Source: Desulfocapsa sp. (GTDB lineage: Bacteria; Desulfobacterota; Desulfobulbia; Desulfobulbales; Desulfocapsaceae). From it: a DNA stretch of 64,000 bases. The position numbers were made by a program, and so were the translations under genes. The stretch spans positions 1 through 64,000 of the forward strand of contig VMSP01000121.1 in assembly GCA_013792135.1 (NCBI GenBank), given 5' to 3'. Under the pieces are notes generated by a model. The model saw nothing but the letters and a program-made list of their open reading frames with translations, had not been told where the DNA came from and searched no databases. Of the stretch, positions 5,956 to 48,993 are shown in pieces (position 1 is the stretch's first letter; each line of letters begins with the position of its first letter).

Positions 5956-6996
5956 CTATAACTCTTTGCTTCGACAAAAAAAATTTTGGGCACGATCACA
6001 GGCCTGTTCCACAGAAGTACTGGTCTGAACAGCACTTGCCAGATAATGGCCAAAGGTAAAATTCTGTCCATAATAGTGGGTGAACTGTTTCAAACGCCCC
6101 AAGCGCCGTTCCGGACGAAAACGCTCCAGCAACTGGACAAAACGAAAATAAATATCCGAAAGACTCAAATTAGACGGAGCACATGATACTCCATAAATAT
6201 CTCTGGCAATTTCAGCAAACAGCCAAGGCCGACAGGCGGCGCCCCGACCAATCATCAGGCCATCCGCCCCGGAAAGTGCAAGACATTTTTTTGCATCCTC
6301 AACACTGAAAATACCGCCATTGGCCAGCACCGGTATCTTTAAAGCAGATTTAATTTTGCCGATCCAGTCCCAGTGCGGACGACGACAAAATTTTTCCCCA
6401 TGCAGACGTCCATGCACGGAAAGAAGATCAACTCCTTCGCTTTCCAGCATCTGACAAAAATCAACCAGTTTTTCTTCATTCAAACTTGTACCAAGACGAA
6501 TCTTGGCGCTCAAGGGTAGGCTGCTGGCACATCTGAGCATAGCGACTATATGACGTACCTGCTCATGATCATTGGTCAAAGCGCACCCTGCCCCCTGTCT
6601 ACGAAGATTGGGGGCAGGACAGCCAAGATTCAGATCAATCCCCTGGGCGCCAAGTTGGTGCAGACGTTCAACTGCAGGCACCACATCCTGACCGGGGCTC
6701 ACGAAGAGCTGATAAAAAAGTGGCTGTTCTTCAGGGGAACGAAAGAGAAAGGGCGAGACAATGGCATTCTCCTGAGGAAGCCTGGTCACCGATAACATTT
6801 CCGTAAAGAGGAGCCCGACCCCACCTAACTCCAGAGTCAGGGTACGCAGCGCCGAATGGGAGAGTCCGACCATGGGGGCCAACGCCAAAGGTGGCGATAG
6901 AGTCAACCCACCAATGGAAAGCGATGCGTCCGTTATTGGCATTAGCAGCGCTTTACTTATGCCACTGCAGAAGAAGATTTTTAAGATCATCCGCAC
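5956..6996 (-). CDS. tRNA-dihydrouridine synthase
   Basis: LAPMVGLSHSALR, GIDLNLGCPAPNLRRQGAGCAL, LANGGIFSVEDA, GADGLMIGRGA. Confidence 0.9.
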   Translation of the reverse strand: MRMILKIFFCSGISKALLMPITDASLSIGGLTLSPPLALAPMVGLSHSALRTLTLELGGVGLLFTEMLSVTRLPQENAIVSPFLFRSPEEQPLFYQLFVSPGQDVVPAVERLHQLGAQGIDLNLGCPAPNLRRQGAGCALTNDHEQVRHIVAMLRCASSLPLSAKIRLGTSLNEEKLVDFCQMLESEGVDLLSVHGRLHGEKFCRRPHWDWIGKIKSALKIPVLANGGIFSVEDAKKCLALSGADGLMIGRGAACRPWLFAEIARDIYGVSCAPSNLSLSDIYFRFVQLLERFRPERRLGRLKQFTHYYGQNFTFGHYLASAVQTSTSVEQACDRAQNFFCRSKEL

Positions 6997-9313
6997 CTAT
7001 GGGCTGATCAAATCGCACATGAACACGATAATTCTTGTCAATATAATCCTGTAATGACACCCCGATAATCTCTCCCTTACGCTCCAAGACCTCATCTGTT
7101 CCCATGGGCAGAGATGAGACAATACGTCTGCCCAATAGCAATCGCGCATTTTCTTTTTTGGAGAGACGGATCATTAGCGAGAGACCGCCAAGAGAGAGAT
7201 CCTCTACCTGCCCCCTGAATTTCTGTTGCGATGTGTTGTCCTTACCATCCAACAAGTTGTTGACAATGATCTGCTGCACTGAATGACGGATCTCCTCACG
7301 ACGATTTTCACCGGATTTTTTCAAAAGTTCATGAATTTTGTCTGATCTACGACAAAAATCACCCAAGCTGGACTCAAGCCCTGGATGCTGCACCAATAGC
7401 TTCAGGAAATCTTCCCTTTCCAGAATTTGCACCTTCACCGCACTCATGGCAACAAGTGTCACCGTCCATACCGAGACATCAAAAAAAGGACCAACCCCGA
7501 CAATCTCTCCCGGCTTCATACGCTTAATAAATATCTCTTTTTGGCCCTGTCTGCAGGTCAGGCTAACCGTTCCCGCATTGATAAAATACAGGGTGGAATT
7601 GATATCCCCTTGCCGGACTATCACCTCTTCGGCTTTATACTCCTGAAAACGCTGACAATGGTACAAGGCAGTGAAGCTATCAGAGGCTAAAAAGTCATAC
7701 AACTCACTCCAAAGGCTGAGATGATGACTGCTGATGGCGTTACTCTTTTCTTCCTCTATGGCCTCACTTACTCGAATAACCTCAATCAAGGCATTTGGAT
7801 TCACCGCCAGCATCCGGTCACGCAAAATCTCTGCCGTCACAAAATCTTTTTCTTTTGCCGCATGAACAGCATGTTCAGCAATCAAAGCCGTAACTTCTTT
7901 TATCTTTTTCGCCTGCAAAAATTGCTGAATCTGAATGTCCAGATCACGCAGATTCAGTCTTGCCCGTTGTTCAGCCTCAGAGTCAGATGCGAAAGACACT
8001 CCTATCTCCTTATCAACACTTGATTTAGCCACAGGTTGCAATTGTGGTTCAATAATCTGCAAGGTGCGCCTGGCAATAAGACTTACTGAATCATGTCCAT
8101 TTTTCCCCTGTTTCCCGCGTTCGGCCACAAGCTGTCGTAATAAAATAACGGTTCGTTGTTTTGGCACCAGACGCAGGGCTATACAGAGTTGTCCAAGAAG
8201 ATCCTCGCGAACATGGGCGGCAATGGCATCACGCTCTGCCAGAAGATCGAGTAGTATGTCAGCACACTCTAAACTGCATCCAAGCTGCCCCAACCAGGTA
8301 ACCAGGGGGGCCTTGAGTTCATCGTCAACCAGGGACAGGGCAGACAAAAGATATTTCTTTTTATCCACACCCCCAAGGTCATGAATACAATCAATGACCT
8401 GCTGCTGGACCCGAATATCCACATCTTTGAGTGAGGGGAGCACCAACGGGACAAGTGAGGAATCACCCATGACTGCAATAAGCAGAACAATATTCCGTAT
8501 TCCGTACCACGGCAGATCTTTGGTCAGATATTCCTTGAGCACAGGCACAGCAACCTTACCCGTCTCTGGAATCAATTTAATGAGACGCAGTCGCTCATTT
8601 TTTTGTTGCGACTGCAGTAACTTCTCAAGGAGAAAGATAACCGAACGGCGGCCGAGCCGGGTCAGGATCTTCTCAGCCAGAATCTGTCGCCCCCCCTGGC
8701 CATTTAGACAAACGAGAGTCAGCTCCTCAAGGATATGCTCAACTGCCAGTGTATCCAAGGTTCTAGCAACCAATCCCCGAATTACATTCCCTTTTTCCAG
8801 TACACCGGATTGAATCTGGAACAGGATCTCCAGCAGTGAATCAAACTGTTGCCAACGTCCCTCATCCAGCATCCTGAGCCCATTCTGTTGTAACTGTCGG
8901 CAAACTGTTTCACAAACCGGATAATATGTTGTTTCCACCTTTAACCAATGCGCCAGCATAAATGTCACTTTGTCCAGCAACTCGACGTGTTCCTCGGCGG
9001 ACAAAAGACCAGAACAAAAAGAAAGGGCCATGACTGCACGTTCCCGGATCGCGCCATCCTCATCGCAGGCATGCTTACCTAATTTTTCCACAAGACTTTC
9101 GGCACGACCAGGAGGCCCATCATGAGAGGCAACAATAATCCGTTGTGATATATTGCCAACAAATTCATCGTGCAACAACACTTTGATGTTTCCCAATTCG
9201 AATTCTTCAAGCTGACGCGACAGCCGAAGGTGAGCCCTCTGTTTTTCACCTGCAGCCATCAACTCTTTGGCTTTTTGCAAAGCCTGTTCTTTTTGTTCCT
9301 GATCGATATCCAT
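6953..9313 (-). CDS. HEAT-repeat-like / cyclic-nucleotide-binding / PilZ-like multidomain protein
   Basis: Helical-repeat N-terminal half; CNB-like EVIVRQGDINSTLYFINAGTVSLT…MKPGEIVGVGPFF; PilZ-like C-terminus with VEDLSLGGLSLMI. Confidence 0.75.
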   Translation of the reverse strand: MDIDQEQKEQALQKAKELMAAGEKQRAHLRLSRQLEEFELGNIKVLLHDEFVGNISQRIIVASHDGPPGRAESLVEKLGKHACDEDGAIRERAVMALSFCSGLLSAEEHVELLDKVTFMLAHWLKVETTYYPVCETVCRQLQQNGLRMLDEGRWQQFDSLLEILFQIQSGVLEKGNVIRGLVARTLDTLAVEHILEELTLVCLNGQGGRQILAEKILTRLGRRSVIFLLEKLLQSQQKNERLRLIKLIPETGKVAVPVLKEYLTKDLPWYGIRNIVLLIAVMGDSSLVPLVLPSLKDVDIRVQQQVIDCIHDLGGVDKKKYLLSALSLVDDELKAPLVTWLGQLGCSLECADILLDLLAERDAIAAHVREDLLGQLCIALRLVPKQRTVILLRQLVAERGKQGKNGHDSVSLIARRTLQIIEPQLQPVAKSSVDKEIGVSFASDSEAEQRARLNLRDLDIQIQQFLQAKKIKEVTALIAEHAVHAAKEKDFVTAEILRDRMLAVNPNALIEVIRVSEAIEEEKSNAISSHHLSLWSELYDFLASDSFTALYHCQRFQEYKAEEVIVRQGDINSTLYFINAGTVSLTCRQGQKEIFIKRMKPGEIVGVGPFFDVSVWTVTLVAMSAVKVQILEREDFLKLLVQHPGLESSLGDFCRRSDKIHELLKKSGENRREEIRHSVQQIIVNNLLDGKDNTSQQKFRGQVEDLSLGGLSLMIRLSKKENARLLLGRRIVSSLPMGTDEVLERKGEIIGVSLQDYIDKNYRVHVRFDQPIGADDLKNLLLQWHK

Positions 9314-39498: not shown

Positions 39499-41727
39499 AT
39501 GAACGAAATAAAAGAACAGCTGGATAAAATAATCCACGCAACCCATCATGACCCTTTCCAATTTCTTGGCGTTCACTTTTCAGGGTCCGAAGAACAGACG
39601 GTTGTTATTCGCACCTTTCAGCCCCATGCCGCCTCCGTTACCCTGCTCACCGAGACTTTTTCCTTGCCTATGAAAAAGACCTGCGACGAAGGCCTCTATG
39701 AGCTGGAACTGGAGCGAGCTACTTTTAAAGACATCGACCTTGATCCCTACAATTACCGGTTCGAGATCACCTATTTTGACGGAACAGTTCACACCGTCAA
39801 TGATCCCTACCGTTTCCTGCCGGCACTCGACGAGCAGGACCGCTATCTCTTTAATTTCGGCACCCATTATGAACTCTATAACCACATGGGTGCCCACATG
39901 ACCAGTCGTTCCGGAATTGCCGGTACCATTTTCCGGGTATGGGCACCGTCTGCCGCCCGCGTCTCTGTTCTGGGAAATTTCAATAGCTGGGACGGACGGG
40001 TACACGCCATGCGCAGCCTGGGAGGTTCTGGAATTTGGGAGCTGTTTCTGCCGGGGATTGGTGAAGACGAACTCTATAAATTTGAGATCCGTACCCAGCA
40101 GGGGGCGATCCTGGAAAAGAACGACCCATTCCAGTTCTACGGCGAACTGCGTCCTAAGACCGCCTCCATTGTCCGCCCTCTGGATCACTATACATGGGAA
40201 GACCAACAATGGCAGCAGGACAGAAACGTCATTTCACCCTATGACCAGCCCATGGCTATCTATGAGGCTCATCCAGGTTCCTGGCAACGAGACCCGGAGG
40301 ATCCTGAACGATTTCTCACCTTCAGGGAGCTGGCCGACAAACTCATCCCCTATGTCCAGAAGCTGGGATTCACTCATATTGAACTGATGCCGGTAATGGA
40401 GCATCCGCTGGATGAATCCTGGGGCTATCAGGTGACAGGCCCCTTCAGTATGACCAGCCGCTACGGGACGCCGGAAGATTTCATGTACTTTGTTGACCAG
40501 TGTCATCAGAACAAAATTGGGGTAATCCTTGATTGGGTCCCGGCCCATTTTCCCAAAGACGAGCACAGCCTGGGCCGCTTTGACGGCACCTCCCTGTTTG
40601 AACACGAAGACCCGAGAAAAGGCGAGCAACAGGAATGGGGGACCTTTATCTACAACTATGGCCGCCGTGAGGTGAGCAATTTCCTGATAGCCAATGCCCT
40701 CTTCTGGTTGGACAAATACCACATTGACGGACTTCGGGTCGATGCCGTGGCCTCCATGCTCTATCTCGATTATTCACGCAAAGAAGGGGAATGGATCCCC
40801 AATGCCTATGGTGGTAGAGAGAATCTGGAGGCCATTGAGTTTATTCGTCATCTTAACTCCATTATTTATGATCGCCACCCTAATACCTTGATGATAGCGG
40901 AAGAATCAACCAGTTTTTACGGAGTTTCCAAAGCAGCGGATATCGGTGGGCTTGGTTTCGGCTTCAAATGGAACATGGGCTGGATGAACGATATTCTCAG
41001 TTATTTTACCAAAGACCCTCTATACAGGAAATTCCACCATAACATCCTCACCTTCTCCATCATCTATGCTTTTTCTGAAAATTTCATCCTCCCCATGTCC
41101 CACGACGAAGTAGTGCATGGCAAACGCTCGCTTCTCGACAAAATGCCAGGAGATCTGTGGCAGAAGTTTGCCAATCTGCGCCTGCTCTTCCTCACCATGT
41201 GGATGCATCCAGGAAAAAAACTGCTCTTTATGGGCAGTGAATTCGGACAATGGGCGGAGTGGAACTGTAAACGAAGCCTGGATTTCCATCTTCTGGACGA
41301 AAATCCACTTCATTCTCAGATGTTGACCTTCGTTGCGGAACTGAATCGGTTTTATAAGGAAAATCCCAGCTTGTGGCAACTGGATTTCAGCCCTGAAGGA
41401 TTTCAATGGCTTGATCTGGAAGACCGGCAGAATTCTATCATTTCCTATGTCCGTTATGGCAAGAACCGCGCCGACCACCTGGTCTGCCTGTTCAACTACA
41501 CCCCGCAGACTCATTATGACTACAAGCTGGGACTGCCGACCGACAGCCAGTATGAGGCAATCTTCTGTTCGGACAGCGAAAAATTTGGTGGCAGCAACGC
41601 CGGCAATAATGAGAGTAATACCACAATCTACCAGCCTCTTGCCGAACCCTTTGCTCAGGCCCCTTTCCATACACGGATCACCGTGCCGCCACTGGCTGGC
41701 GTAATTTTAAGACCCATTTCCAGATAA
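39499..41727 (+). CDS. glgB: 1,4-alpha-glucan branching enzyme
   Basis: FRVWAPSAARVSVLGNFNSWDGR, GVILDWVPAHFPKDEHSLGRFDGT, GLRVDAVASMLYLDYSR, LPMSHDEVVHGK. Confidence 0.97.
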   Translation: MNEIKEQLDKIIHATHHDPFQFLGVHFSGSEEQTVVIRTFQPHAASVTLLTETFSLPMKKTCDEGLYELELERATFKDIDLDPYNYRFEITYFDGTVHTVNDPYRFLPALDEQDRYLFNFGTHYELYNHMGAHMTSRSGIAGTIFRVWAPSAARVSVLGNFNSWDGRVHAMRSLGGSGIWELFLPGIGEDELYKFEIRTQQGAILEKNDPFQFYGELRPKTASIVRPLDHYTWEDQQWQQDRNVISPYDQPMAIYEAHPGSWQRDPEDPERFLTFRELADKLIPYVQKLGFTHIELMPVMEHPLDESWGYQVTGPFSMTSRYGTPEDFMYFVDQCHQNKIGVILDWVPAHFPKDEHSLGRFDGTSLFEHEDPRKGEQQEWGTFIYNYGRREVSNFLIANALFWLDKYHIDGLRVDAVASMLYLDYSRKEGEWIPNAYGGRENLEAIEFIRHLNSIIYDRHPNTLMIAEESTSFYGVSKAADIGGLGFGFKWNMGWMNDILSYFTKDPLYRKFHHNILTFSIIYAFSENFILPMSHDEVVHGKRSLLDKMPGDLWQKFANLRLLFLTMWMHPGKKLLFMGSEFGQWAEWNCKRSLDFHLLDENPLHSQMLTFVAELNRFYKENPSLWQLDFSPEGFQWLDLEDRQNSIISYVRYGKNRADHLVCLFNYTPQTHYDYKLGLPTDSQYEAIFCSDSEKFGGSNAGNNESNTTIYQPLAEPFAQAPFHTRITVPPLAGVILRPISR

Positions 41728-42733: not shown

Positions 42734-45700
42734 ATGAAGAGAACCGGCAGCAGCTTTTTTACAACATTAACCCTGACGTTTTTGTTTATGACGGGAGCGT
42801 TGCTGCCCCAGGTACTGGCGGCGTCCTTTGCCTATATTCCAAACCACTACAGTAACTCAGTCTCAGTTATAGACACAAGCACCAACACTGTTGTCGCGAC
42901 CCCCGCTGTAGGAAATGGTCCTTTTGGCGTAGCAGTCAATCCTACAGGCACAAGGGTTTATATAACAAACCTTAACGGCGGCACCGTTTCCGTCCTGGAC
43001 ACATCAAGCAATACCGTCATTGCCACAATCACAGTAGGCGAAAACCCTTATGGTATCACAGTGACTCCTAACGGCAGCCGCGTCTATGTGGCAAACTGGC
43101 TAAGCAACACCGTCTCGGCAATAGACACCAACACAAATACCGTTACGGCTACCATCCCGGTGGGAGCTGGTCCTTTTGGTATAGACGTCAACCCCGCCGG
43201 CAGCTGCGTCTATGTGACAAACAATGCCATTGATACCCTTTCGGTAATTGATACAAGCACCAACACTGTCATTACCGATCCCGCCCCAGTCTCTACCGGG
43301 GATGTTCCCTGGATGATAGCCATCACCCCATCAGGCAATCATGCCTATGTGGCACACTATAATGAATCCAATGTTTTGGCCATTGATACAAACACAAACA
43401 GCGTTGTCAGCACGATTCCTCTGGGCGGTATTACTATTGCCGGTTTGGCAGTCAATCCCTCCGGCAGCCTTGTTTATGCGGCAAACAGTAATAACAACAC
43501 TGTCCAGTTCATCGACACAAGTTCAAATACCGTTGCTGGTGCCATCCCCGTGGGAAGTTATCCCTATGGTTTGGCGATTACACCTTCCGGCAGTCATGTC
43601 TATGTGGCAAATCATTATAGCGACACTGTCTCGGCCATAGACACTGTCACGAATACCGTTGTTGCCACTATCCCGGTGGGATCACATCCTGTTGCCGTCG
43701 GCAAGTTTATCGGGCCCAATATATGCACCCCGCCTCCTTCAGGAATGTTCTCCTGGCTGGGCGGAGACAATAACGCCCTCGATATGGTCGGCGCCAACCA
43801 CGGCACGTTGGTAAATGGTACAACGTATGCCGCAGGCATGGTCGATCAGGCATTCAGTCTGGATGGAGAGGATGATTATGTGAACATACCGAATCTCACC
43901 AGCCAGAAATTCCCTGCGGCTTTCACAATCGGCGCCTGGATAAAGGCAACCGTATTACCGGGCGACATCGTGGTCTTAGCCGGTATGCCGGGAGGATATC
44001 AATTGGATTTACGCTCTAATGGCAAAATAGCATTTGGGAATGCCGGAGCAATGGTTGACTCAACAGCCTCAATTTCCAACAACACGTTTGTTCATGTAGC
44101 AGCCAGCTTTGATGCAGGAAATGTAAATATATATATCAATGGGGTACTGGATCATCAAGGCACGACCACCACATATAGCGGAGGTGAAATTCCATTTCAG
44201 GTCGGAGGGTTCGGAGATTACGCAAATACTTTTTTTAATGGGATGATCGATGAATTGGAACTCTACAATCGTGCCCTTACCGCCGAGGAAATAGCCGCCA
44301 TCTACAACGCCGGCAGTGCCGGAAAGTGCCGCTCCTGCACTCCGCCTCCCACTAACATGGCAGCATGGTGGAAGGCAGAAAATAATGCCGATGACAGCGT
44401 GAGTACTAATAACGGCACCGTGCAAAATGGTACAACGTATGCCGCAGGTAAGGTCGATCAGGCCTTCAGCCTGGATGGAGTGGATGCTTATGTTGAAGTG
44501 CCGCATAATGCAAGCCTGAGTTTCCCTCCTGCTTCGCCAATGAGTTTTGATCTATGGGTATATCGAACAAGTACATCAGCAACTCAACATATCTTTTCAA
44601 AACGTACCGACTGTACTTACTTTAATTATCAGCTAGCTTTGGATTCTGGCTTTAACACCGGGTTATGTTTCGGAGGCAATGCAACTCAGATCTGCACAAC
44701 TGGAGAGGAATCAGACCTGCCGCTCAACACCTGGACCCATATTGCCGGAACTTCTGACGAAACCACACTAAAACTGTATGTAAACGGCAAGTTAGCCGCA
44801 AGCAGATTAGGTTCTTTAGGTTCAGAGAATGAGGTTCCTCTTAAATTTGGTGCTGCGGGAACATGCGGCACATATCCATTTGGTGGCCTCATCGACGAAA
44901 TGGCAATCTACAGCCGCACCCTTTCAGCTGAGGAAATTGCGGCAATTTACAATGCCGGCAGCGCCGGGACGTGCGATATTGACACGACCCCTGACGCCTT
45001 TACCTTCACTGACCAGACAGGTGGGGCGGTAAATACTCTTACTCTTTCTAATACGATCACCGTAAGCGGTATCAACAGTCCGGCAGACATAAGCATTTCA
45101 TCCTGTACCGGTACAAATTGCGAATACCAGATCAACGGCGACAGTTGGACCTCTACTGCCAGCACAGTCAATAATAACGATACGGTTACCGTCAGACAGA
45201 CATCATCAAGCAGTTATGCGACAACCACAAACCTCAGCCTCGATATTGGCGGAGCAACTGATACCTTCAGCATAACTACAATCCAGAAGTATATCATGAC
45301 TCCAGGGAAAGCGGGTGATGGCAGCGGAACTATAACCAGCGACACAGCAAGCATAGATTGTATTTCCCGCCCAGAACCCGGAATAAACGATGGAACAGAT
45401 ACCGGTACAAGCCTGGCTGGAAAAGATGCCTTCGGCGGAACATGCAGCAACCCCGGCTACAATAATGGTGACGGCACTGCTATTTATGCTGCTCCCATAA
45501 CTACCTGTAACGAATGTAACAGTGACGCATTCATTCAGTTTGATTTGGCTTCGTTACCAGCCACTGTGGAACATGTTTATCTCGGAGTTACCCATTATCC
45601 TCATGACACATATTGTTATTCAAACTGTGACGCTGATTTTTATTTTTATCCCCTAACCTCTTCATGGAGTGAAAATACTGTCAGCTTGACAAATAACCCG

Positions 45701-46630
45701 ACTGCCAGCACAACGCCAGCCTATGGCCCAATCAATATTACCTTCCCTAATGACTTTGGAGCTCGAGAGTATGAAATTACAGATCTTTATCAACAATGGA
45801 AAGATGGTAGCATTCCAAATTATGGGATTGAAATTTCTTCTCCAACGATTGGGTGCAACAATGCATCTGTTGCTTTTTATGTCCATAGCTCTGACTCAGA
45901 AATTGGCAAGCGCCCCTATTTGCGTATTGTAACCGCCACAAGTGTCAATAACGAATGCGCCGGAGGGAATGCATGGAACTATGCATCTGGCGCAATCGTC
46001 ACCCTTACCGCCACCCCAGATGCAGGTTCTACCTTCACCGGCTGGAGCGGAGATGCAGACTGCGATGATGGTATAGTGACCATAAATGCAAACACAACCT
46101 GTACCGCTACTTTTGCTATCAATACCTACACTGTTAGCGCATCGGCAGGACCCAACGGCTCAATTAGCCCAGCAAATGACCAAACTGTAAATCATGGAAC
46201 TACAACCACATTTACCGTCACCCCTGACACCAACTACACCGCCAGTGTCAGCTGCACCTGCGGCGGAACACTAGATGGCACCACCTACACCACAAATGCC
46301 GTTACTTCAGACTGTACCGTTATTGCAACCTTTACCCTTAACAGCTATCCCCTCACGATCAATAAAACTGGCATCGGCACGGTGACAAGCAGCCCATCCG
46401 GTATTATTTGCGGCACGGATTGTTCCGAGGATTATAACTTTGGAACCGATGTCACCCTCACAGCCACTCCAGCTACCGGCAGCATCTTTACCGGATGGAC
46501 AGGCGGTGGCTGTACAGGGACAGGAGTTTGCACGGTGACCATGGATGAGCAGAAAGAAATTTCTGCATCTTTCCTGAAGGACTTTCCCTGGCCGATGTTT
46601 TTACCAGCCATAACCAAAGGAGTCCAATAA
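42734..46630 (+). CDS. Large secreted multidomain protein: 7-blade YVTN propeller, two LamG-like domains, DNRLRE-like region, GxxFTGWSG repeats, FPWPMFLPAI tail
   Basis: Signal peptide; seven [YV]xTNxxxxTVSxIDTxTNTVxAT repeats; two WLG/WWKA…VDQAFSLDGxDxYV blocks; DAFIQFDLASLPATVEHVYLGV; C-terminus DFPWPMFLPAITKGVQ. Confidence 0.85.
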   Translation: MKRTGSSFFTTLTLTFLFMTGALLPQVLAASFAYIPNHYSNSVSVIDTSTNTVVATPAVGNGPFGVAVNPTGTRVYITNLNGGTVSVLDTSSNTVIATITVGENPYGITVTPNGSRVYVANWLSNTVSAIDTNTNTVTATIPVGAGPFGIDVNPAGSCVYVTNNAIDTLSVIDTSTNTVITDPAPVSTGDVPWMIAITPSGNHAYVAHYNESNVLAIDTNTNSVVSTIPLGGITIAGLAVNPSGSLVYAANSNNNTVQFIDTSSNTVAGAIPVGSYPYGLAITPSGSHVYVANHYSDTVSAIDTVTNTVVATIPVGSHPVAVGKFIGPNICTPPPSGMFSWLGGDNNALDMVGANHGTLVNGTTYAAGMVDQAFSLDGEDDYVNIPNLTSQKFPAAFTIGAWIKATVLPGDIVVLAGMPGGYQLDLRSNGKIAFGNAGAMVDSTASISNNTFVHVAASFDAGNVNIYINGVLDHQGTTTTYSGGEIPFQVGGFGDYANTFFNGMIDELELYNRALTAEEIAAIYNAGSAGKCRSCTPPPTNMAAWWKAENNADDSVSTNNGTVQNGTTYAAGKVDQAFSLDGVDAYVEVPHNASLSFPPASPMSFDLWVYRTSTSATQHIFSKRTDCTYFNYQLALDSGFNTGLCFGGNATQICTTGEESDLPLNTWTHIAGTSDETTLKLYVNGKLAASRLGSLGSENEVPLKFGAAGTCGTYPFGGLIDEMAIYSRTLSAEEIAAIYNAGSAGTCDIDTTPDAFTFTDQTGGAVNTLTLSNTITVSGINSPADISISSCTGTNCEYQINGDSWTSTASTVNNNDTVTVRQTSSSSYATTTNLSLDIGGATDTFSITTIQKYIMTPGKAGDGSGTITSDTASIDCISRPEPGINDGTDTGTSLAGKDAFGGTCSNPGYNNGDGTAIYAAPITTCNECNSDAFIQFDLASLPATVEHVYLGVTHYPHDTYCYSNCDADFYFYPLTSSWSENTVSLTNNPTASTTPAYGPINITFPNDFGAREYEITDLYQQWKDGSIPNYGIEISSPTIGCNNASVAFYVHSSDSEIGKRPYLRIVTATSVNNECAGGNAWNYASGAIVTLTATPDAGSTFTGWSGDADCDDGIVTINANTTCTATFAINTYTVSASAGPNGSISPANDQTVNHGTTTTFTVTPDTNYTASVSCTCGGTLDGTTYTTNAVTSDCTVIATFTLNSYPLTINKTGIGTVTSSPSGIICGTDCSEDYNFGTDVTLTATPATGSIFTGWTGGGCTGTGVCTVTMDEQKEISASFLKDFPWPMFLPAITKGVQ

Positions 46631-46777
46631 AAGAGGAGAGTCTTTATACACCTTGCTCCTCCGGTGTGGGCTGGACAATTTCTCAACATAGCCGATGGAG
46701 CACCATTACTTATTTTGTCTATCCAATAGTGCACAAATTCTGCGGCAAAGGTAAAAAACAAAACAGGGGGAAAAACC

Positions 46778-48781
46778 ATGAAAAACAAGCGGATTAAAGG
46801 TTCTATTTGGCTTCTCATGTTGATGGCGATGTTCTGTGCCTTGATGGCTGATATGGCCAATGCGAACAGTGGAGTAAAAAACCGACCCCTGCCGGTGGAA
46901 AATGATCTCTTACAATTCAGGGCTGGAACTCATGTCATGGGGTTCAAGCCGGACAAGGCGTACCTTGTGAATACGGCTGGTTTTTTAAGCGTAGAATTTC
47001 TTGGCGCCCATACTATTGTCCCGCAGGCTGTCGCCGCAGATAACACAAATCGGCACCAGGATAATATTGCATTAACACCAGACCGTGAAGACACGCTTGC
47101 CAATCTGCAACGGGTCGAATACCAGGATCTTTGGGACGGGATAACCCTTCACTATGACGCGGTGCAAACGGGGATTGCCGAAAGCACTTATTTCATTCAA
47201 CCCGGGGCTGATGTTGCTGATATCAGGTTGAGATATAACGCCGACACCGAACTGCAGCAAGACGGGTCGCTCAAGATCAAACTTGCCACCCGGCAAGGCT
47301 ATATTACCGAGTCAATGCCAGTGGCTTGGCAGATTGTGGATGGCCGAAAAAAAGCAGTCCAGGTGGCATATGAGATACAAGACGGGAAAATTGGCTTTAA
47401 AACTGGAGCATACAACAAGGATCATGAACTGATTATCGATCCAACCTATCAGTGGCACACTTTCTACGGCTCTACAGCTACTGATTCTGGCCTTGCCATA
47501 GCTGTTGACGAAAACGGAAATGTCTATGTAACAGGTTCCAGCGATGCCACCTGGGGCAACCCGTTGCATCCTTATACTGACAGTACTGACATCGTGGTCT
47601 TAAAACTTAACAGCTCAGGAGCATTGCAGTGGAATACCTTCTATGGCTCTGCAAATAGTGATTATGGCAATAGCATAGCCATTGACGGAAACGGGAATGT
47701 TTATGTAACAGGTCAGAGTAATACCTCCTGGGCCAGCCCGGTCGCCCCGCTGCATGCCCATAATTCAGGCTTTGATGTCGTGATTCTCAAACTTGACAGT
47801 TCAGGGGCATACCAGTGGCACACCTTCTACGGCTCTGCGTCTACTGATTCTGGCCTTGGCATAGCTGTTGACGGAGACGGGAATATCTATATATCAGGTA
47901 TCAGTGTTGCCACCTGGGGCATCAGCCCGCTTAATCCCCATGGTGGAGGGGGTAACGCTGATATCGTTGTCTTCAAGCTTGACAGTTCAGGAAACAACCT
48001 GCTGTGGAATACCTTCTATGGCTCTACATCCACTGATTATGGTAATGGTATAGCCCTCAAAAGCGGATATGTTTATGTAACAGGTTACAGCAATGCATCC
48101 TGGGGTATCCCGCTGCATGCTCATAGTGCAGGAGCTACAGCTGACATCATGATCTTAAAGCTTGACGATACAGGAGCGTTACAGTGGAACACCTTCTACG
48201 GTTCTGGAACATATGACGATAAAGGCTATGGTATAGCCGTTGACGGGAGCGGGAATACCTATGTAGCAGGTACGAGTAAGGCCACCTGGGGCAGTCCTGT
48301 TAATCCTTTTAATGGAAGTGGACAGGGTGAAATCACGGTCCTCAAGCTTAACACTTCTGGGGCATTACAATGGAACACCTTCCACGGCTCGCTATCTATT
48401 GATAATGGTTATAACATAGCCGTTGATGGAAATAGAAATGTCTATGTAACAGGTTCCAGTAATGCCACCTGGGGCAGCCCACTGCATGCTTATAGTGGCA
48501 GCACTGACATTGTGGCCTTAAAGCTTGCTAATTCAGGAATACTCCAGGGAAATACATTCTACGGCGCTGTATCTGTTGCTGATTATGGTTATGGTTTAAT
48601 CGTTGACGGAAGCGGAAATGTCTATATAACAGGTTCCAGCAATGCCACCTGGGGCAGCCCGCTGCATGCTCATAGCGTAGGCCTCAACGAGGATATCGTG
48701 ATCTTAAAGATCTCCGATACCTTCAAGAAATTCCCATGGCCGATGTTTCTACCAGCCATCATCAAGGGAGGAGTCCATTAA
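46778..48781 (+). CDS. Secreted SBBP-repeat beta-propeller protein with FPWPMFLPAI tail
   Basis: Signal peptide; seven repeats of QWNTFYGS…DYGxxIAVDGxGNVYVTGSSNATWGSPL…DIVxLKLxSSG; C-terminus KFPWPMFLPAIIKGGVH. Confidence 0.88.
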   Translation: MKNKRIKGSIWLLMLMAMFCALMADMANANSGVKNRPLPVENDLLQFRAGTHVMGFKPDKAYLVNTAGFLSVEFLGAHTIVPQAVAADNTNRHQDNIALTPDREDTLANLQRVEYQDLWDGITLHYDAVQTGIAESTYFIQPGADVADIRLRYNADTELQQDGSLKIKLATRQGYITESMPVAWQIVDGRKKAVQVAYEIQDGKIGFKTGAYNKDHELIIDPTYQWHTFYGSTATDSGLAIAVDENGNVYVTGSSDATWGNPLHPYTDSTDIVVLKLNSSGALQWNTFYGSANSDYGNSIAIDGNGNVYVTGQSNTSWASPVAPLHAHNSGFDVVILKLDSSGAYQWHTFYGSASTDSGLGIAVDGDGNIYISGISVATWGISPLNPHGGGGNADIVVFKLDSSGNNLLWNTFYGSTSTDYGNGIALKSGYVYVTGYSNASWGIPLHAHSAGATADIMILKLDDTGALQWNTFYGSGTYDDKGYGIAVDGSGNTYVAGTSKATWGSPVNPFNGSGQGEITVLKLNTSGALQWNTFHGSLSIDNGYNIAVDGNRNVYVTGSSNATWGSPLHAYSGSTDIVALKLANSGILQGNTFYGAVSVADYGYGLIVDGSGNVYITGSSNATWGSPLHAHSVGLNEDIVILKISDTFKKFPWPMFLPAIIKGGVH

Positions 48782-48993
48782 GAGAGGAGCCGTTTACAGA
48801 TACACAGCAAGCTCGACAAGCTCAAAAGCTTCATTTATCTGCAAAAACTCGGATAGCCTGAAGAAGCATTGCTCCTCTGTGGTTAGATAGTTTCTCATAA
48901 AAACCGTCATAACCGGAGGGGTAATCGCTATGTTCTATACATCAAATATGCACATATTCTGCGGAAATGGCCAGAATATGACTTTATCAAAAG

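Follow-up and report, generated by a model that had tools for sequence, protein, structure and literature searches.

FPWxMFLPAI, a short terminal tag on unrelated exported proteins of Desulfobulbales

Two neighbouring genes with a common tail

The window, a stretch of 64,000 nucleotides from a Desulfocapsa genome, carries two neighbouring genes whose products end in nearly the same peptide. Their features are listed below.

42734 to 46630, forward strand: tagged protein 1 (1298 aa), consisting of a YVTN/YncE propeller, two LamG domains, a DNRLRE domain, InlB-type repeats, and the tail
42734 to 42823, forward strand: signal peptide of protein 1, MKRTGSSFFTTLTLTFLFMTGALLPQVLAA, assigned by eye and by a hydropathy rule
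46583 to 46612, forward strand: tag core of protein 1, FPWPMFLPAI, followed by TKGVQ and the stop codon
46778 to 48781, forward strand: tagged protein 2 (667 aa), consisting of DUF7948, an SBBP beta-propeller, and the tail
46778 to 46864, forward strand: signal peptide of protein 2, MKNKRIKGSIWLLMLMAMFCALMADMANA, assigned by eye and by a hydropathy rule
48731 to 48760, forward strand: tag core of protein 2, FPWPMFLPAI, followed by IKGGVH and the stop codon

FPWPMFLPAI plus five to six residues forms the end of both proteins. Protein 1 finishes with ...SASFLKDFPWPMFLPAITKGVQ (tail FPWPMFLPAITKGVQ) and protein 2 with ...ISDTFKKFPWPMFLPAIIKGGVH (tail FPWPMFLPAIIKGGVH), and alignment of the last 22-23 residues yields 14 identical columns. 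Outside the tail, the two proteins are unrelated, one being built from propeller, LamG, and InlB-type repeat modules and the other from DUF7948 and SBBP. An earlier note on this DNA had described a near-identical C-terminal tail on two otherwise different proteins with signal peptides, and both parts of that description were confirmed. In the structure model of protein 2, the propeller is confident and residues 650-667 are placed without confidence; the tail is thus modelled as a flexible extension.

At the DNA level, the surroundings of the two window tails are 82% identical over 65 bp, a likeness that suggests local copying of the 3' end or a common terminator. GAGGAG...CTCC-type inverted sequences were observed 3' of both tag genes (46628-46680 and 48779-48900), and a search of the window for Rfam elements found none.

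Copy number, conservation, and lineage limits

The tag is far more abundant than these two genes, as some two dozen proteins end in it in the source genome and some thirty in a congener. In the 4.2-Mb source genome, a degenerate codon pattern for W-x-(NTN)-F-L-P-A-I has 13 matches, 12 of which are in frame and lie 11-15 aa before the stop of their ORF, the remaining one lying 38 aa before it; the reversed control gave 0. Internal occurrence in cytosolic proteins, which the earlier note had named as evidence against a sorting role, came down in the source genome to a single near-match that was noticed, WELFLPGI in the glycogen-branching enzyme (39499-41727). With a profile of 43 tails (A2) and the loose cut-off of E <= 10, 26 matches were obtained in the source genome and 31 in the congener G008, most of them strong, and no match better than about E 0.3 was obtained in the congeners G003, G005, and G009. 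Applied to the fetched DNA, the 43-tail profile gave motif ORFs more than about 9.5 bits and noise less than about 9.3. When each GTDB species was represented by one genome, a scan matched at least 106 stretches; among the matches listed, about 92 were judged real, and 89 of these lie within 26 residues of the stop, which bears out the terminal bias. In the remainder, the frame is very short, the motif is internal, or the match is to a permease sequence that recurs.

Exact copies are present in 32 of 243 Desulfobulbales genomes, all belonging to two families, and in none of the 285 genomes scanned from elsewhere in the phylum, both scans having used the exact pattern, which diverged cousins elsewhere could escape. 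Since the reversed controls gave 0 in the source genome and, as FPW..FLPAI, in the 243 genomes of the order, chance similarity is ruled out by reversed-pattern controls at the level of genome, order, and phylum. The titles of the fetched contigs mostly name Desulfobulbaceae, Desulfocapsaceae, Desulfocapsa, and Desulfobulbus. The cultured carrier Desulfogranum japonicum DSM 18378 has one exact copy or more (L094). Viral contigs delivered one match, in a short frame that runs on for long, which was taken as chance, and plasmids one worthless match. Presence and absence of the tag differ clearly within one genus, so that comparative genomics should be able to identify a partner gene.

The consensus of 118 tails is F-P-W-x-(M/L/I)-F-L-P-A-(I/M), usually followed by 3-7 residues, a mixture of Gly, Asn, Lys, Gln, His, and Pro that is mostly polar in most copies. 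The core contains three prolines in ten residues. In the 118 tails there is neither a transmembrane helix after the motif nor a C-terminal basic cluster (no consistent grouping of Arg/Lys), so that what had been reported for the two window tails holds generally. Third codon positions vary and first and second ones do not; many of the latter were set by the search pattern, and the third-position drift is therefore the informative half of this result. Because variation in the third positions has left the peptide unchanged, selection acts on the peptide, and the copies are mostly maintained peptide rather than recent DNA duplicates.

It could be argued that the tail has no function and merely spreads when the 3' ends of genes are duplicated or recombined, as some unrelated carriers do have common DNA past the stop codon (L206/L239, L207/L231, and L210/L211). 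This explanation is highly improbable and is largely refuted by the codon-position pattern: synonymous positions have diverged with the peptide kept across genera and two families, the DNA similarity of most carrier pairs ends near the stop codon, and the N-terminal copies described below cannot come from 3'-end spread. Because a few pairs have common 3' flanking DNA, recombination of 3' ends is nevertheless one route by which the tag has spread.

Two loci deserve mention. The unrelated tag genes L210:8730-9518 and L211:9637-10977 have 182 bp in common that are 85% identical, beginning at about the stop codon. Locus L115 encodes three tagged proteins, two with leucine-rich-type repeats, and two of its tails extend unusually far and in the same manner (..RPHLNPY.. 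and ..HQRLNPY..).

Carriers, position of the tag, and known sorting signals

A simple, lenient hydropathy rule was used to detect signal-peptide-like starts in the two best-sampled genomes; 37 of the 41 complete motif ORFs have one, whereas among the other ORFs the figure is 113 of 303 (p 5e-11). The enrichment on signal-peptide proteins that the earlier note had proposed to look for is thus present, and the tag is not limited to paralogues of the window genes, as the passengers in these genomes form at least 21 clusters with no detectable similarity between clusters. Pfam domains on carriers include InlB repeats, LamG, SBBP, GLUG, ice-binding-like, Lcl_C, RHS, and subtilase domains, C10 and papain-type peptidases, beta-helix, and others, which are typical extracellular modules. 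The association of the tag with export is well supported, and in exported proteins the tag is very probably functional.

The motif is C-terminal in 38 of the 41 complete motif ORFs of two genomes. A strictly C-terminal tag, as first envisaged, therefore holds for most carriers, and a few families have a copy at the mature N-terminus. In L105 and L236 (one family by eye), as well as in L055 and L244 (Lcl_C, by Pfam for L244), the motif directly follows the signal peptide, with none at the C-terminus. A multihaem cytochrome family displays A-KSNLFLFLPAIIGNGHN at the mature N-terminus (with 9 CxxCH in L222), and the LFLPAI core is kept in nine members of the genus; since its motif scores near the noise limit, it is the weaker N-terminal case. 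This secreted cytochrome (L222:9457-10995 and L290-L297) is conserved, has 7-11 CxxCH and LFLPAI at the mature N-terminus, and is a candidate for an outer-surface electron carrier of the genus. Use of either end points to binding rather than C-terminal cleavage.

A minus-strand protein of L265 looks like the N-terminal-motif cases. L093 (about 6900-7395) and L261 contain internal motif variants followed by a C-terminal region with WGAGxxVCC, which in L093 has no Pfam match.

The well-known many-to-one tags of bacteria follow one plan, namely a motif, a membrane helix, and a basic end, combined with a membrane-bound peptidase, and the tag breaks this plan twice by having no helix and by using either end. 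Compared with the tripartite signals (LPXTG, PEP-CTERM, GlyGly-CTERM, and MYXO-CTERM), it likewise occupies the extreme C-terminus of unrelated signal-peptide proteins, with a minority at the N-terminus. PEP-CTERM/exosortase is a Gram-negative, multi-copy C-terminal system found in some Desulfobulbales, as the tag is, but a PEP motif, a helix, and a basic end are all missing from the tag. Type IX secretion (T9SS) relies on a folded C-terminal domain of roughly 70-100 residues that, like the tag, has no membrane helix and that takes exported proteins to the surface, as the tag would, whereas the tag is a peptide of about 15 residues that is predicted to be flexible. YLPLV-type tails are known in Chloroflexota.

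In both GlyGly-CTERM and MYXO-CTERM, many unrelated signal-peptide proteins have one common end (PMC3237569, PMC11980579). GlyGly-CTERM/rhombosortase is lineage-limited like the tag, but consists of motif, transmembrane helix, and basic cluster paired with a rhomboid protease (PMC3237569), whereas the tag is a motif alone, occurs also at the N-terminus, and has no paired enzyme that we could find. MYXO-CTERM/myxosortase is, like the tag, lineage-specific and marks dozens of surface proteins, but its invariant cysteine, its TM helix, and its arginine-rich end are all missing from the tag; MYXO-CTERM proteins use type II secretion (T2SS) and are linked to surface retention, and TraA that lacks its tag escapes into the medium (PMC11980579). 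The tag works like a sorting tag and is not a member of the GlyGly-CTERM or MYXO-CTERM families.

No NCBIfam or Pfam sorting-signal model matched the window proteins or the tails of at least 20 aa (10 of the 43 tails being long enough on their own). A literature search found no paper describing the tag, FLPAI together with C-terminal leading only to antimicrobial, venom, and similar peptides, and no solved structure with the tag was found. The tag is thus new in the sources searched. The earlier reading is supported overall, its observation being confirmed and much larger than first reported, and we infer a sorting or anchoring function from it.

Partner genes and possible mode of action

A comparison of neighbours found no recurrent gene family beside the tag genes, neither a linked peptidase nor a receptor. 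In a few loci, subtilases and histidine kinases turn up repeatedly; because tag variants occur on two or three of these subtilases, they look like cargo. Exosortase was considered as a partner and rejected, as PF09721 is absent from the tag-richest genomes (G000, G008, G011, and G221) and from others. It was found in 6 of 20 tag-rich versus 10 of 16 tag-poor genomes (p 0.09) and is, if anything, commoner in the latter.

These results bear on the idea that the tag is a processed C-terminal sorting signal, at which a peptidase would cut near FLPA-(I/M) and join the carrier to a surface anchor in the manner of a sortase or exosortase. The many-to-one, C-terminal, lineage-restricted pattern on signal-peptide proteins does resemble that of known sorting signals (PMC3237569). 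However, the tag has no membrane helix or basic end, has three prolines in ten residues, and occurs in N-terminal copies, the tag-richest genomes have no exosortase, and no linked peptidase was found, which makes such processing unlikely. The N-terminal copies and the missing membrane helix make binding the likelier process when set against cleavage and transpeptidation.

The T2SS secretin GspD was found in all 20 tag-rich versus 12 of 17 tag-poor genomes (p 0.014, uncorrected for shared ancestry), being split over contig ends in three of the 20. In G000 and G008, a gene next to gspE bears a tag variant; in G001, a gene next to gspG, at the other end of the T2SS operon, bears an exact tag. Eight T2SS loci were inspected, and by a rough estimate about 0.1 T2SS-adjacent tag genes would be expected over 20 genomes, for an adjacency that was noticed after the fact. 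The T2SS is a plausible export route of the carriers. It is not the tag's specific reader, because many tag-poor genomes also have a T2SS. Concerning the co-occurrence with a processing or export gene that the earlier note had suggested, no linked gene emerged and exosortase was excluded; the association with the T2SS, and nothing more, was retained.

The tag might instead be an export signal that is read by the secretion machinery, for example as a T2SS substrate-selection peptide, in which case the carriers would be released without retention. The presence of a T2SS in every tag-rich genome, the tag genes adjoining its operon, and the extracellular enzymes among the carriers (e.g., peptidases) agree with this, but essentially no tags occur in congeners that do have a T2SS, such as G003 and G009, and no linear signal common to T2SS substrates is generally known to serve for their recognition. 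We regard a pure export signal as rather unlikely. Anchoring at the lipid interface, where the aromatic, proline-rich peptide would insert in the outer leaflet without a protein receptor, would suit a hydrophobic peptide with Trp and Phe that works at either end. Yet F, W, F, L, and P are fixed in the 118 copies (partly because the search pattern demanded them), and lipid insertion alone should tolerate hydrophobic swaps, so that this type of anchoring is very unlikely.

We would give about even chances to FPWxMFLPAI being a terminal tag whose docking to a receptor keeps T2SS-exported proteins at the surface. A tagged protein would be carried over the inner membrane by Sec, would fold in the periplasm, and would be taken over the outer membrane by type II secretion, after which its flexible hydrophobic tag would dock non-covalently into a specific receptor in the outer membrane or surface layer, and the protein would be displayed rather than released. 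In a broader form, which we hold more tentatively, one receptor may capture the peptide on as many as about 30 unrelated exported proteins of a genome, the multihaem cytochrome among them, whichever mature terminus carries it, with no cleavage and no membrane helix, and would constitute a surface-display system of Desulfobulbales. These sulfur-cycling bacteria are poorly studied, and the tag marks their likely surface proteome, in which the multihaem cytochrome family is included, and the peptide is short enough to be used as bait (e.g., FPWPMFLPAITKG).

A further C-terminal sequence was seen in ice-binding-like proteins (PF11999). DQPWRLLLMNR was considered as a second general tag and set aside, as it was not convincingly present on other families among its few matches. 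The end (D/P)QPWR(L/I)LL(M/L)(N/H) is frequent among paralogues that lack the FPW tag, as observed in L274, L278, L280, L285, L287, and L288, all of which come from tag-bearing genomes.
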